From: Magnetococcales bacterium
GTDB taxonomy: Bacteria > Pseudomonadota > Magnetococcia > Magnetococcales > JADFWU01
Assembly (NCBI GenBank): GCA_015234045.1
Contig: JADFWU010000030.1
Location: forward strand, 1-38,957
Direction of reading: 5' to 3'
DNA length: 38,957 nt
Positions 6,660 to 18,976 of the stretch are shown one piece after another. The notes under the pieces are model-generated. The model was not told the DNA's origin and searched no databases. It saw only the letters and a program-made list of their open reading frames with translations. Position numbers and translations under genes: made by a program. How positions within the stretch are numbered: position 1 is the stretch's first letter; each line of letters begins with the position of its first letter.

Positions 6660-6744
6660 TGGTGCGAAAGGGGGGAGTCGAACCCCCACGCCTTACGGCA
6701 CTGGATCCTAAATCCAGGGCGTCTACCAGTTCCGCCACTTTCGC
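6660..6744 (-). tRNA. tRNA-Leu (anticodon UAG)
   Basis: An 85-nt class II tRNA with an encoded CCA. The anticodon stem CTGGA/TCCAG encloses loop TTTAGGA with UAG, reading CUN leucine codons. A variable arm (GTGCCGTAAGGCGT) and the T-loop GTTCGACTC are evident. It is the last member of the Pro-Arg-His-Leu series but is separated from tRNA-His by its own terminator and a 280-nt spacer. Confidence 0.96.
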
Positions 6745-6970
6745 ATAACTTTATTCCTCTAACATTTTTTAGAGGGTGAAGACCGATTGAGTGCGGTCTT
6801 TATCGTACTGTCCTCTGCATATCCACACAGCGGACCTATTTCAAACAATGGAATTCTAATTCACACAGTGTCACTGCCCATTAATGGAAAAAGTGTCTCA
6901 CCCATTCCAAAACCATGAATATCACATGGTGCAATTGACACTCACTTCGCAAGCAACCCGAGCTTACACG

Positions 6971-7008
6971 AAAAAACCCGGCCTAAGCAATTCTTATAGG
7001 GCCGGGTT
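6971..7008 (-). terminator. intrinsic terminator after tRNA-His
   Basis: On the minus strand a 9-bp GC-rich stem AACCCGGCC/GGCCGGGTT is followed by further T residues (TTTTTT run in total). It begins 18 nt past the 3' end of tRNA-His and ends the Pro-Arg-His transcript. Confidence 0.8.
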
Positions 7009-7026
7009 CACGAATCTTTGGGAAGA

Positions 7027-7103
7027 TGGGGCGAAGGACGAGATTCGAACTCGCGACCGCCGGAGCCACAATCCAGTGCTCTACCTACTGAGCTACCTCC
7101 GCC
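7027..7103 (-). tRNA. tRNA-His (anticodon GUG)
   Basis: A 77-nt tRNA including an encoded CCA. The anticodon loop TTGTGGC carries GUG. The extra 5' G(-1) opposite discriminator C73 is genomically encoded, the identity element of bacterial tRNA-His. Confidence 0.96.
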
Positions 7104-7244
7104 ATAACCCCTTGCCTTAACCCGTCCATTTATCACGGGACAGCGTCTTTATAAACCAATCCCTTCAGAATAACAACGGCCCTTCTGGTTAAAGCTCACC
7201 CTTTTTTCAAACGGTCACTGCCCAGAAGGCACCACATTTGAAAA

Positions 7245-7321
7245 TGGTACGCCCGGCAGGACTCGAACCTGCAACCTACGGCTTAGAAGGCCGTTGCTCT
7301 ATCCAGTTGAGCTACAGGCGC
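7245..7321 (-). tRNA. tRNA-Arg (anticodon UCU)
   Basis: A complete 77-nt cloverleaf with encoded CCA; anticodon loop CTTCTAA carries UCU, reading AGA/AGG arginine codons. It is the second member of the Pro-Arg-His transcript. Confidence 0.96.
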
Positions 7322-7351
7322 AAAACCGCCTTTTACTGCCTTTTGAAAAAA

Positions 7352-7429
<78 letters not shown>

Positions 7430-14008: not shown

Positions 14009-15115
14009 ATGGCCAATGATGCCCGTTCAATTCGTCGTTTTTTATCTGCTATTCCCGCGCACTGCCCGGTAGATAGCCTGGACTATCTGCACCTGCTTAA
14101 TTGGCCTGCGTCACTGCCACATCCGCTGGAATTTCTAACTGAGCACGGTTTCAGCGGCACACTGTCGGCTGGTCGTATCTCTGTTGCCCAGCAGGCGGAG
14201 CCTTACCTAAACAGACTGTCCACCATTGTCGTCAGCGATCACCCTTCTGACAACAAACCATCCAATGGCACTCTGTTGGAGCTACCCCAAGGCCGTACCG
14301 CTGCTTTAATGACCATTCAGGCGGGCCTTGATGCCTTAACGCCAAATGCCCGTCTATGGCTATTCGGTAACCGTGACACCGGCATTATGCGTATTGCAAA
14401 AAGTTTTTCCAACGTAGAGACAGTGTTCTATAAAGGCCACTATCGACTACTCTCTTTGAGCACGGAGTCACAGTGCCTGGACACAGGTTTTGAAGAACAG
14501 CGCAAAAAACTGGCCAAATCGGACTTTTTTCACCACATGACCGTGAAAGGGTTATCCCTGGCTACACTGCCGGGCACCTTCTCATGGCAAGAACCCGATT
14601 CCGCCTCTCTCATGCTGCTTGAAACAATTCAAGCACAGCAGGAGATTAAAGGCCCTGTTTTAGACTGGGGATGCGGCTGCGGCCTTCTGGGCCTTTCTCT
14701 TGCCATGACTGATCAACAGCTTGAGGTTACCCTGGCGGATGACCAATGGTCTGCCATTCGATCCACTGAACGCGCCATTCAGCTCAACGATCAATTGGGA
14801 CTCAGTGAACGTTGCACAGTGATCGCAGAAAATGGCATCGGCCCAAAACTTTCGGGCAGCCGCTTTCGTACAGTGATCACCAACCCGCCTTTCCATCGTG
14901 GTAACCGAATGGACCGCGAAACCACAAATCTGTTCATTCAACAGGTCAGCTCGGCCATGCATCTCAAAGGAACACTTTGGCTGGTGGGCAATCAATTTCT
15001 CAACTACACACCTTTGCTGGAAGCCGCATTCAAAGTGGTTTCAAAGCCCGCTGAAAATGAACGCTTTTGCGTGTGGCAGGCACAGGGTGTCCGATTGAAT
15101 AAATCACGCTACTGA
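14009..15115 (+). CDS. rsmC: 16S rRNA guanine-N2 methyltransferase RsmC-like
   Basis: A 368-residue SAM-dependent methyltransferase with two related Rossmann-like halves, as in RsmC/RlmG. The C-terminal catalytic half has motif I VLDWGCGCGLLGLSLA (near 217-232) and the catalytic NPPFHRG motif (near 294-300) used for exocyclic amino methylation. RsmC modifies G1207 of 16S rRNA; RlmG (G1835 of 23S) is the close alternative. Its 3' end overlaps the convergent RNA ligase gene by 7 nt, so this is the junction where the accessory operon begins. Confidence 0.85.
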   Translation: MANDARSIRRFLSAIPAHCPVDSLDYLHLLNWPASLPHPLEFLTEHGFSGTLSAGRISVAQQAEPYLNRLSTIVVSDHPSDNKPSNGTLLELPQGRTAALMTIQAGLDALTPNARLWLFGNRDTGIMRIAKSFSNVETVFYKGHYRLLSLSTESQCLDTGFEEQRKKLAKSDFFHHMTVKGLSLATLPGTFSWQEPDSASLMLLETIQAQQEIKGPVLDWGCGCGLLGLSLAMTDQQLEVTLADDQWSAIRSTERAIQLNDQLGLSERCTVIAENGIGPKLSGSRFRTVITNPPFHRGNRMDRETTNLFIQQVSSAMHLKGTLWLVGNQFLNYTPLLEAAFKVVSKPAENERFCVWQAQGVRLNKSRY

Positions 15116-15807
15116 GTATTTGTGCGTTGTGCCTGCATTTGATTCCACTGAATGTGACGATGACTCCAGTGGGTATCAATAGTTTGGGTAAACTCAGACC
15201 GGACTAATTTAGCCCGACTGTCACACCAATCAGATAATTCCTGACGGATAACAATACCTTCCAGCGCACCTTGACGGAAATGACTCCCTTTAACCTCTAA
15301 AAGAGCAATGAGTTCAGCCTTGGTAGCCGTACCTTGAAAAATCATGGGGGGCACAGGTAGCATTAATGAATTTGCAAGCTCATTGCGCCTCTGAGAACTC
15401 CAGAATCTCTCGCACTTCCTATCAAAAACATCAAAAACTAAAAACCAATCCGGCAATGCATCATAGTCTAAGGAGTGCTTTACTGCACACCATTCACCAA
15501 ACAGAATAAGCTCACTATCGAGTTGATCAATTAGGGAATAGCGGTGTTGATCCACCCATGCATTAAGACGAGAAAATTGCCCTTTAAATGGCTCAATCAG
15601 GTACTGACCACGATTTTGAAACTGTATGACACCTTCCTGAGATAGGGATATTCCCAGATTAGCACCATCAAGTTTTTCTTCTACTACCACCGCCCTTGAC
15701 AGCAATGCTTCCACTTCAGTGAGAGACAGTTTTTTATCGTCCCGAAGTTTTTCTTTTCCCAACCAAGCAAGATGTGGTGTATGTGGGAAACGGAAAAAAT
15801 CGCTCAT
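15109..15807 (-). CDS. RNA ligase family protein (Rnl2-like nucleotidyltransferase)
   Basis: A 232-residue ATP-dependent RNA ligase-type protein. The nucleotidyltransferase motifs appear in order: motif I EEKLDGAN with the predicted AMP-accepting K45, FQNRG (63-67), motif III LFGEW (102-106), IIIa FLVFDVFD (122-129), motif IV EGIVIR (183-188) and motif V RAKLVR (198-203). The family adenylates itself and then seals 5'-phosphate to 3'-OH ends in nicked or broken RNA. No kinase, phosphatase or cyclic-phosphodiesterase domain is attached. The start ATG overlaps the stop of the PIN nuclease gene by 4 nt (ATGA), indicating coupled translation. The RNA target is unknown; DNA sealing cannot be excluded. 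Confidence 0.88.
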   Translation of the reverse strand: MSDFFRFPHTPHLAWLGKEKLRDDKKLSLTEVEALLSRAVVVEEKLDGANLGISLSQEGVIQFQNRGQYLIEPFKGQFSRLNAWVDQHRYSLIDQLDSELILFGEWCAVKHSLDYDALPDWFLVFDVFDRKCERFWSSQRRNELANSLMLPVPPMIFQGTATKAELIALLEVKGSHFRQGALEGIVIRQELSDWCDSRAKLVRSEFTQTIDTHWSHRHIQWNQMQAQRTNTQ

Positions 15808-16340
15808 GGCCTATTTTTCTTCGCTTGCCATTTTTTATACAACCACGTCTCAATCAGTTGCTCCACTTCTACCCCATGTTCTATCAGTACATCAGCGCAA
15901 TCAAACCAATCCGTATCACAGGCATTTGTCAATTTACAGGGATGCCCCTCACGTTTTGCAGCCAAAACGGCGGCAACCATTTTGCGATCTGCACGATCAG
16001 TGACTGACGTTGAGAGAGATTCTTGCAAAACTGCGTGACCATCTGAATCCGTAGACAGGCTTATCCATACAACTTCACCACGGTCATGTTTGGCCATCAT
16101 AGAAAGGAGGCCGAAATCCTGTTCTGTCAACTTATTCTGATATTCTCCACAAATAAGCCAATCCCAGTCCATAACTGCATGACGTTCGGAATCTTTTTCA
16201 AAGTCTATCAGCCAATCTAACACATGTTTCCGTAAACTTTGTTCTTCTACAGGCGTTGCTCCAGGTTGAAAGGGAGAACCATCATCTGCTGCACTGGCGA
16301 CAATCAATACATTTGTATCCACAACGCGTGCGTCAATCAT
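15804..16340 (-). CDS. PIN-domain nuclease-like protein
   Basis: A 178-residue protein with the acidic constellation of PIN ribonucleases: D8 in VVDTNVL, E66 in CGEYQNK, D118 (with D115) in TDRADRKMVAA, and D142/D144 in CDTDW. These would bind the two divalent metals. The family cleaves single-stranded RNA or tRNA and leaves 5'-phosphate and 3'-OH ends; VapC toxins are the best-known members. It is longer than VapC (about 130 residues) because of an insert after strand 1 (residues 15-55). No VapB-like antitoxin is next to it; instead it sits between an ATPase (8-nt overlap) and an RNA ligase (4-nt overlap). Confidence 0.8.
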   Translation of the reverse strand: MIDARVVDTNVLIVASAADDGSPFQPGATPVEEQSLRKHVLDWLIDFEKDSERHAVMDWDWLICGEYQNKLTEQDFGLLSMMAKHDRGEVVWISLSTDSDGHAVLQESLSTSVTDRADRKMVAAVLAAKREGHPCKLTNACDTDWFDCADVLIEHGVEVEQLIETWLYKKWQAKKNRP

Positions 16341-17643
16341 GTGCTATTTCTTTCAACCGCTGCCCACGGGCAAGGGCCTTAGCACGGGCCAAGGCCCTTG
16401 CCCGTGCTTCTCCCACGCTGTCTCCAAAAAAATTTGGTGGCCAATTTCTTACTGCACCAAATTCATCAACATCCAAAGGACGTAAGACAGCATCAGATTT
16501 ATCTCGTTCAACAAAAAACATAGAGCACGTATTCGTATCAGTTTCATCTTGAGCAATTAGAGTCTGCATCCGGCGAAACAAATGCTCAGAATGGGTCTCA
16601 ACCAAAAACTGAATTTCTCGTTCGCGACTAACGTAAAAAAACATCTCTGCCAATAAAGACTGAGCCAAAGGGTGTAGGTGGATTTCTGGCTCTTCCAAAA
16701 TAATAGTGCTTCCTCGTTGAGCAAAATAGGCCACTGCCAATACGGGTAAGACCTGAGAAACACCAATACCAACATCTCGAAGGTTTGCTACGACACCATC
16801 ACGATGCACGACAACCTCATAGCGGTTGGAACCGCCCAGTTGACGTACCTCCAACTTTTCAGCAACATCCATCCGACGAAGCCATTCAGAAACACCATCA
16901 ATAACCTGACGATGCTCTTCTCCTCGGATCAGAGCACTGGATAGCAAAACATCAATGGCCTTATGCCCATCGCTTCCAATCTCGCCAGGCTTGGACTTAT
17001 TCCATACATAGTCCCGCTCAGGTTTACGGCGAAGCGGTCCCAAATAGACGATACCTTCAAGTTCTCGACGGATTGCCAGACTTATATCTTCAACCAATTC
17101 ACCATCTTGACCAAGATGCCGAATAGCCTCTGAAGAAAAAGCAATAGACCTTTCTGGAGCAAACCCCCGCCCCTTTCCTCTTGTTTGCGTTTCATCATCA
17201 ACGTACAAAGCGTAGGCATCACGCTGACTGCGTTTGACTCGGAAATGATGCTCAGCAGAAGAAAGGATAAGCTCCCTTATTACTATAGCTCCTCTGGAAT
17301 CAGTTCCGTAAATGCAACGAAAACCACCTTGGGATACACGTTCCCCCATATTCTGACGTTCGAATTGAAAAGCCAATTCAAACGCGCGTTTGCCTTTTGT
17401 ACCTGATCTATAAATGTTGTGAAAATCACCAAAAGTGAATAGATCACTGACCTCATCACCACCCAAATTTAGATGTATGGTGCGATCAGGTGACTGGATT
17501 GTCTGTTTTAGGAGAAGCAGGCTTTGAATGAGAGAAGATTTTCCAGACGAATTTGTACCCAGCAAAATTGTGACCGGAGTCATCGGAATCTCACTGGTAT
17601 CACGCCATATCTTGAAATTTTTCAGTCGCAAGAGTGATAGCAT
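16333..17643 (-). CDS. RecF/OLD-like AAA ATPase with DUF3696-type C-terminus
   Basis: A 436-residue ABC-class ATPase. Walker A GTNSSGKS (29-36) follows the typical LKNFKIWRDT start. A signature-like DVGIGVSQVLPVL lies at 290-302, Walker B STIILEEPEIHLHP at 312-325 and the switch ETHSEH at 349-354. The region after 376 (FFVERD...GAVRNWPPNFF) looks like a DUF3696 tail. Such ATPases act as sensors or activators in several anti-phage and toxin pairs (family knowledge). The last 25 residues are an Ala-Arg-Leu repeat encoded by a palindrome (16365-16406), an apparent add-on. The start has AGAGG 9 nt upstream, lying in a predicted hairpin. First gene of the ATPase-PIN-ligase operon; base composition looks slightly more AT-rich than neighbours by eye. 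Confidence 0.88.
   Translation of the reverse strand: MLSLLRLKNFKIWRDTSEIPMTPVTILLGTNSSGKSSLIQSLLLLKQTIQSPDRTIHLNLGGDEVSDLFTFGDFHNIYRSGTKGKRAFELAFQFERQNMGERVSQGGFRCIYGTDSRGAIVIRELILSSAEHHFRVKRSQRDAYALYVDDETQTRGKGRGFAPERSIAFSSEAIRHLGQDGELVEDISLAIRRELEGIVYLGPLRRKPERDYVWNKSKPGEIGSDGHKAIDVLLSSALIRGEEHRQVIDGVSEWLRRMDVAEKLEVRQLGGSNRYEVVVHRDGVVANLRDVGIGVSQVLPVLAVAYFAQRGSTIILEEPEIHLHPLAQSLLAEMFFYVSREREIQFLVETHSEHLFRRMQTLIAQDETDTNTCSMFFVERDKSDAVLRPLDVDEFGAVRNWPPNFFGDSVGEARARALARAKALARGQRLKEIAHD
16365..16406. repeat. 16-bp perfect palindrome at the 3' end of the ATPase gene
   Basis: CACGGGCAAGGGCCTT (16365-16380) and AAGGCCCTTGCCCGTG (16391-16406) are perfect reverse complements around a 10-nt loop. 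It is translated in frame as Ala-Arg-Leu-Ala-Lys repeats of the ATPase C-terminus and ends 25 nt before the PIN gene start. It is much more GC-rich than the flanking operon and resembles a REP-type insertion. In the mRNA it would form a very stable hairpin between the ATPase and nuclease cistrons. Confidence 0.9.
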
Positions 17644-17652
17644 GTTTTGTTA

Positions 17653-17709
17653 CCTCTGGTTGTGCTTTTCAGCCAGAGGAACGGCACAACAAAAATCCAG
17701 ATCCTCTGG
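17653..17709 (-). promoter_or_regulatory. leader with alternative hairpins around the ATPase Shine-Dalgarno
   Basis: In the minus-strand transcript, CCAGAGG (17709-17703), CCTCTGG (17679-17673) and CCAGAGG (17659-17653) occur in that order. The last copy contains the AGAGG ribosome binding site 9 nt before the ATPase ATG at 17643. Copy 2 can pair with copy 3 (7 bp, 13-nt loop, SD masked) or with copy 1 (SD free). A competing 7-bp stem GTTGTGC/GCACAAC (17690-17684 with 17665-17659) would also leave AGAGG open. Copy 1 also begins a small hairpin CCAGA-GGA-TCTGG followed by ATTTTT, a weak attenuator-like element. Confidence 0.5.
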
Positions 17710-17747
17710 CCTTCTAACCACTGATATTGCTAAAACTTTATACGCTA

Positions 17748-18881
17748 TTATCTGTAATAGTAGAGGTGCTTATACTCCAAAAACCGCTTCAGATAATGCA
17801 TCATCCGCGTTGGTGGCAGCATGAGCGAGAAGTTCGGGAAGCGAGATACCAACATACCGGAATCCAGCGTATCAACGATGCAGATCAACTCATTTTTAAA
17901 CGTTGCATCAGCATCCTGTCCTTTGAAAGTGCGATATACATTGGTGGCTGCTGTACGGGCCTGAATTTCCGCCATATGGGCCTGTTTGGCTTGCCATAAG
18001 GGACCGGGCATACTGCCCGCATCTCCGGCCACCCAGACCTGTTCGGCATTGCCTTGGACACGGCAACTTCCATCTGCCTTGAAAAAGCCACCTTCAGACA
18101 ATTCAAAATCAGTGCTGGCAAACCAGGGCTGCCCTGTCATTCCAGGTAGGAATACAGTCAAGTCCGAGTGAAAAGAACCGGCCTCGGTAGTGACACTGTC
18201 TGGACCAAACGAAACAATCTTGTGACCAAGATGTGTCTCCACATCCCGTTTTTTCATGGCTTTAAGCAGACCTTTCACCGCTTTGGTGCCCAACCGTTTT
18301 CCCGGTTGGCGCATGGGTGAGACAAAAGCCAACTTAAAATTATCGCGCCGCCGCTCCCGTTTCAGCTGGGTATGCAGACCAAACAGGAACTCAAACATCG
18401 GTCCACCACGCACCCCAGCAGCTTCTTTGGGATTACCAGAAAATCCCATGGCCACTGTTCCACCTGACATACAGGACAAACGCTTACGAATCGCCTGCGC
18501 TGCCGAAATACCAGAGCAAGGATTGATGGTATTCTCAATACCAGGGGCTTTTCTCAGATAACTGGCACCGGAAGCAATGATCAAAGCATCATTGTAAACC
18601 TCACCATGAGTGGTTTGGACAATGCGACCTTTATATTCAATAGAGGTCACTTCACCAGCGTGGTGATGTACACCCATCTCTTTGAAATAGCGCTCCAGAG
18701 ATACACGCAGGTCTTCGCCAGTGCGAATCCCGGAGGGCACCCAGATCAAACTCGGCAGATAGGTTAATGAAGCCTTAGGCGAGATTACCGTAATCTCCAG
18801 CCGTCTTCCGAGGTCCAAATCCCGTAACTTCCGCACAGCGGCCAGCGCCGCAAAACCACTGCCAATTATGGATACCTGCAT
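17748..18881 (-). CDS. SQR-like FAD/NAD(P)-dependent pyridine nucleotide-disulfide oxidoreductase
   Basis: A 377-residue flavoprotein resembling sulfide:quinone oxidoreductase and flavocytochrome c sulfide dehydrogenase subunits. The N-terminal FAD-binding GSGFAALAAV (7-16), the ATG-like IIASGASYLRKAPG (101-114) and the second FAD site VWVAGDAGSM (282-291) are visible. Cysteines are C122, C137, C273 and C334. C122 sits where many SQRs have a redox-active Cys, but the C-terminal third catalytic Cys of classical SQR is not evident, so the substrate is uncertain. A basic, aromatic C-terminus (KRFLEYKHLYYYR) could mediate membrane contact as in SQR. The frame opens at GTG 18929, but ATG 18881 has GGGAG 7 nt upstream and gives the standard start. 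Confidence 0.85.
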   Translation of the reverse strand: MQVSIIGSGFAALAAVRKLRDLDLGRRLEITVISPKASLTYLPSLIWVPSGIRTGEDLRVSLERYFKEMGVHHHAGEVTSIEYKGRIVQTTHGEVYNDALIIASGASYLRKAPGIENTINPCSGISAAQAIRKRLSCMSGGTVAMGFSGNPKEAAGVRGGPMFEFLFGLHTQLKRERRRDNFKLAFVSPMRQPGKRLGTKAVKGLLKAMKKRDVETHLGHKIVSFGPDSVTTEAGSFHSDLTVFLPGMTGQPWFASTDFELSEGGFFKADGSCRVQGNAEQVWVAGDAGSMPGPLWQAKQAHMAEIQARTAATNVYRTFKGQDADATFKNELICIVDTLDSGMLVSRFPNFSLMLPPTRMMHYLKRFLEYKHLYYYR

Positions 18882-18976
18882 CAGGACACTCCCAAAGGGT
18901 TTGCTGATTTGTTCAAGAGACGCGCTCACTCTGTCTCTATAGTCACCGTGACTGGCCCTTGATCAGAGCCATTCCA

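Follow-up and report, generated by a model that had tools for sequence, protein, structure and literature searches.

Can the short leader of an operon with a predicted nuclease turn translation on and off by refolding? The question is raised by a locus in a 38,957-nt stretch of DNA from Magnetococcales bacterium (contig JADFWU010000030.1; the whole stretch is here called the window). On the minus strand, an intergenic leader of 104 nt lies between an oxidoreductase-like gene, whose stop codon is 104 nt before the ATPase start, and the ATPase gene that heads the operon. An initial annotation had described three copies of a 7-mer in this leader as a translational switch controlling access to the ATPase Shine–Dalgarno (SD) sequence.

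Repeats and competing helices of the leader

Reading of the minus strand and a repeat search located all three 7-mers (CCAGAGG, CCTCTGG and CCAGAGG; copies 1, 2 and 3 in transcript order) where the initial annotation had placed them (Table 1). The AGAGG ribosome site within the last copy, 9 nt ahead of the ATPase ATG, was likewise correct on sequence reading, and the repeat search recovered the 7-bp pair GTTGTGC/GCACAAC. The copies can also pair as proposed, over stretches longer than the 7-mers given. Copies 1 and 2 form a 9-bp perfect inverted repeat (GCCAGAGGA/TCCTCTGGC) with a loop of 21 nt, or 10 pairs with a flanking G·U. Copies 2 and 3 pair over GUUCCUCUGG/CCAGAGG-U-AAC, that is, 10 pairs with one bulge.

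Table 1. Coordinates of the leader features and of the neighboring genes
Feature	Coordinates	Strand	Remarks
Oxidoreductase gene	17748-18929	minus	Pyridine nucleotide-disulphide oxidoreductase, sulfide:quinone reductase-like; upstream, co-oriented
Copy 1, CCAGAGG	17709-17703	minus	Inside 9-nt arm GCCAGAGGA (17710-17702)
Copy 2, CCTCTGG	17679-17673	minus	Inside 9-nt arm TCCTCTGGC (17680-17672)
Copy 3, CCAGAGG	17659-17653	minus	Includes the SD
SD, AGAGG	17657-17653	minus	9 nt ahead of the ATPase ATG (17643-17641)
GTTGTGC, first arm of 7-bp stem	17684-17690	minus	Inside the loop between copies 1 and 2
GCACAAC, second arm of 7-bp stem	17659-17665	minus	Last base shared with copy 3
Mini-hairpin and ATTTTT	17691-17709	minus	CCAGA-GGA-TCTGG (17709-17697), then ATTTTT (17696-17691); weak terminator-like match
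23-codon GTG frame	17650-17721	minus	Runs across the leader hairpins; TAA stop 6 nt before the ATPase ATG
ATPase gene	16333-17643	minus	AAA ATPase with DUF3696, HEC-03B-like; HEC-03B E 2.3e-85 (PADLOC model)
Second gene	15804-16340	minus	HEC-03A-like, 178 aa, predicted VapC-like PIN fold; HEC-03A E 1.4e-6 (weak)
RNA ligase gene	15109-15807	minus	PF09414 domain match

We folded the leader together with 54 coding nt. The best fold paired copies 2 and 3 (2:3), formed the mini-hairpin and hid the SD (-41.7 kcal/mol); a fold forced to pair copies 1 and 2 (1:2), which leaves the SD free, reached -40.6 kcal/mol, about 1 kcal/mol from the best fold. Minimum-energy and alternative folding had been proposed as a check, and the two states that it returned bear out the claim that copy 2 can pair with copy 3 or with copy 1 in competing helices of near-equal predicted energy. 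Mutually exclusive helices, one of which hides the SD, are one mark of an SD-sequestering switch, and the predicted folds contain them. As isolated elements, the two helices differ: 1:2 was stronger by 6 kcal/mol (-19.3 kcal/mol versus -13.0 kcal/mol for 2:3).

Which state was favored in the predicted folds flipped according to where the transcript was taken to start and end. For RNA running from just past the upstream stop codon to the start codon, the probability of 1:2 was 0.94; it fell to 0.24 once 54 coding nt were added. When the RNA started about 8 nt before copy 1 and ended at the start codon, 2:3 dominated (0.98), and the SD-hidden state prevailed in most folds with this 5' end that stopped near the start codon. 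In growing chains that included copy 1, the probability of 1:2 was about 1.0 once copy 2 had emerged, before copy 3 existed. Since 1:2 would be complete before copy 3 and is the stronger helix, co-transcriptional folding would favor an open SD, and closing it would need refolding; this preference is deduced from growing-chain folds and helix strengths rather than from folding kinetics.

The 7-bp stem had been put forward as a separate SD-free state. When forced, it gave -38.6 kcal/mol, and its ensemble probability as a nested state was about 0 in full-length folds, the tools used leaving pseudoknots unscored. The first arm of the stem falls within the loop of 1:2, and the second arm immediately precedes the SD. 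The stem is therefore compatible with 1:2 as an H-type pseudoknot rather than exclusive of it, and the claim of an alternative state is not borne out.

As for the weak attenuator that the initial annotation had suggested, both the hairpin and ATTTTT are present, and together they form the sole terminator-like match within 17500-18000. The stem, however, has just 5 pairs (3 G-C), and chance alone would produce 0.4 matches of this kind over the stretch scanned. The mini-hairpin cannot coexist with 1:2; it appears in the same fold as 2:3. No sigma-70-type promoter was found within 17500-18000, and no SD is visible ahead of the GTG of the 23-codon frame.

Chance expectation and conservation

When the 104-nt leader was subjected to dinucleotide shuffling, a 7-mer triad (a 7-mer, its complement and the 7-mer again) arose in 30 of 20,000 shuffled sequences (0.15%). 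In real 104-nt windows its frequency was about 1.1%, an upper figure, as the windows overlap and the leader itself was counted several times. The 9-bp inverted repeat was less rare (1.2% of shuffles, 3% of real 104-nt windows). With the SD region held fixed and the rest shuffled, a 7-nt complement to the SD region appeared in 0.34%, and a second copy together with the SD complement in 0 of 20,000 shuffles. We also compared the leader with 110 mostly noncoding leaders out of 294 kb of the same genome. Triads were present in three of these, our leader included (two of the 109 others), and an upstream 7-nt SD complement in four of the 97 that carry an SD, again counting our own. Only the leader studied here combined both.

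The folding energy of the leader lay between ordinary and mildly low (z -1.31; 23 of 200 shuffles folded at least as well). In a second design with the SD region fixed, about 5% of the shuffles folded as well; p for the folding energy is thus about 0.05-0.1. Opening the SD came at a typical energy cost, one that 55% of shuffles equaled or exceeded. The deviation from chance is real yet modest, and it was found by scanning the whole window. By our estimate the window holds roughly two dozen leaders, so that one such pattern is unusual, not astonishing.

Relatives of the ATPase were drawn from 100 genomes, from genome contigs and from a 299-genome sample of the phylum. The closest was 69% identical, and none in the phylum sample was higher. 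Neither CCAGAGG, CCTCTGG nor any 7-mer triad was present in the 104-nt leaders of about 37 relatives that carry the ATPase, and SD accessibility in relatives' leaders ranged from 0.01 to 0.94 with no common pattern. The initial annotation had named beforehand the absence of the copies from other genomes with the operon as an outcome that would speak against a translational-switch architecture; the copies were absent from every sampled relative with the operon, and on this point the claim fails. The conservation of helices across the leaders of related operons, by which riboregulators are recognized, was not seen.

No alignable homologous leader was found in genomes of the order, contig relatives, plasmids or phages. 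A search of 47 other genomes of the order with the leader DNA gave chance-level matches only (best E 0.05), and there were no matches in plasmids and none in phages. The ATPase itself was not found in a scan of viral contigs. The Nitrosomonas relatives have a mutually alignable leader of their own, which is SD-poor and lacks these features. In one same-order genome (G031, L003), the operon and leader sequence is the same as in record L038 (Magnetococcales bacterium). Because the leaders share nothing at an ATPase identity of 69% or below, a lineage-specific device is possible. Rfam searches of the window returned only tRNAs, with no credible match for the leader and none above the gathering score; at a permissive threshold, the leader gave implausible eukaryotic matches only. 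Four tRNA genes are clustered at 6663-7429 on the minus strand.

Alternative readings of the leader

On balance, we think that this is probably a lineage-specific, passively structured leader whose SD is open by default and which has no dedicated trigger. It would combine the inverted repeat of 9-10 bp formed by copies 1 and 2 with another stretch complementary to copy 2, one that takes in the SD and may be partly coincidental. The 1:2 hairpin, the stronger helix, would form on the emerging RNA ahead of the synthesis of copy 3. The SD would then be mostly free and the operon translated at a moderate constitutive level, with the 2:3 hairpin reached rarely or off the main folding path and reducing translation to some extent. 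We favor this reading because isolated 1:2 is the stronger element and forms first in growing chains; because the roughly 37 relatives lack the copies and the leader has no homologue in the order, in plasmids or in phages; and because triads and SD complements occur in other leaders of the same genome and exposing the SD takes an ordinary amount of energy. Several points stand against it. Among the 110 leaders, no other joins a triad to a copy that includes the SD, and a second copy together with the SD complement arose in none of 20,000 shuffles with the SD region fixed. The two states are close in energy, as a switch would need, and for a transcript that begins some 8 nt ahead of copy 1 the hidden state prevails in most folds that stop near the start codon. 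The absence of the copies at 69% identity or below would, moreover, be compatible with a lineage-specific regulator.

Those near-equal energies also speak for a genuine bistable translational switch between 1:2, with the SD free, and 2:3, with the SD hidden and the mini-hairpin re-formed as a weak terminator. The dependence of the preferred state on the assumed ends, the presence of the mini-hairpin and 2:3 in the same fold, and the probable nuclease operon downstream point the same way, and the trigger could be, for example, RNA polymerase pausing, a small RNA, or leader cleavage or ligation by the operon's own enzymes. We nevertheless judge such a switch unlikely: it is conserved in none of the sampled relatives, the folding statistics are close to chance, no Rfam family matched, and the interval 17500-18000 yielded no sigma-70-type promoter. 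What stands of the switch described by the initial annotation is the competing helices and a plausible PIN nuclease operon; the three-way architecture and the conservation do not.

The inverted repeat lies 37 nt past the oxidoreductase stop codon and could instead serve that gene, as a terminator or 3'-end stabilizer, and have nothing to do with how the operon is translated. The only terminator-like match in the interval scanned is indeed here, but its T-linked stem is just 5 bp and no T run follows the strong stem of 9-10 bp. The sequence downstream of the oxidoreductase differs among its relatives (21 genomes of the order, 52-63% identical), so that no ancestral terminator is seen, and we consider this explanation improbable. 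It is distinctly improbable that the three copies are half-sites of a DNA operator. Center-to-center distances of 30 and 20 bp approximate whole helical turns, and the position of the boxes would suit a repressor. Elsewhere in the genome, however, CCAGAGG-N(0-30)-CCTCTGG has just two further sites, of which one falls within an open frame and the other shortly past the end of a gene, and neither an adjacent regulator gene nor a promoter was identified. Translational coupling through the 23-codon frame, with ribosomes opening the hairpins, draws on the frame being open and its TAA stop following directly after the SD. The GTG has no SD, however, a frame so short is expected by chance and there is no relative to compare, which makes coupling very improbable. 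Barely credible in our view is an autoregulatory, lineage-specific RNA in which 1:2 and GUUGUGC:GCACAAC would together make an H-type pseudoknot. The pseudoknot would end right at the SD and hold it open, and cutting or resealing by the operon's PIN nuclease and ligase would flip the RNA to 2:3, with the SD hidden.

Known leaders offer partial parallels. Translational attenuation leaders of the ermC/cat type contain mutually complementary segments, the last of which hides the SD, and a short frame. The present leader resembles them in these respects but differs in having no leader-peptide SD and no identified stall motif, inducer or conservation. Closest in mechanism is the sequestration of the SD in the Helicobacter pylori aapA3/IsoA3 type I toxin–antitoxin system. 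There, metastable hairpins sequester the SD in the toxin mRNA; suppressor mutations, probing and translation assays demonstrated them, and the system includes an antisense RNA (PMC6733600). In both cases, a toxin-related gene has an SD that a short hairpin, formed locally and in competition with other structure, could hide. The hairpins described here, by contrast, are predicted and not conserved, and the leader precedes a protein operon and has no identified antisense RNA. If it were a switch, it would be an SD-sequestering leader of a new form, and RNA structure by itself would be restraining a nuclease-containing defense operon; otherwise the leader is an ordinary one.

The downstream cassette

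The HEC-03 system of PADLOC is defined by a HEC-03B ATPase adjoining HEC-03A, and this arrangement was found. The operon differs from HEC-03 in its third gene, an RNA ligase, and in its weak match to HEC-03A. The ligase also follows in 25 of the 30 relatives on contigs; among the remainder, some are truncated by a contig end soon after the second gene.

Six residues of the second protein are invariant (D8, N10, E66, D115, D118 and D144), and its structure model has a pLDDT of 95. VIA-align ranked VapC/PIN proteins highest, with Z from 9.6 down to 8.1 and an rmsd of 2.7-3.5 across 110-126 residues. By itself, Foldseek gave weak matches (best E 0.02); transaldolases in its top rows had low probability and TM and were set aside, the VapC/PIN rows covering the protein better. 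Sequence searches of the PDB gave nothing useful for the PIN protein or the ligase. Invariant residues, model and structure matches agree on a PIN fold with conserved acidic residues, and the second gene plausibly encodes a VapC-like PIN protein, a predicted nuclease. For the toxic nuclease operon of the initial annotation, the nuclease is a reasonable assignment on the PIN model and the invariant residues.

The operon represents a cassette that is widely conserved and related to the PADLOC candidate HEC-03, with a probable role in phage defense. Because it would unite probable RNA-cutting and RNA-sealing enzymes in one operon, the ATPase–PIN–RNA ligase cassette is the more promising subject.

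The DUF3696 AAA ATPase, the VapC-like PIN protein and the RNA ligase are adjacent and in this order in most relatives (15109-17643 in the window; L023-L052). The hosts include Nitrosomonas, Burkholderiales, Lelliottia and Geobacter, and the PADLOC HEC-03 models match the first two genes only. The G+C content of the operon region (14800-17600) is 0.44-0.47, compared with about 0.48-0.52 in the flanks, which is compatible with an acquired cassette. Finally, an apparent remnant of the cassette lies at 1501-1989 of L010 (G012:C14), where about 100 residues of the ATPase precede a short piece of the PIN protein.
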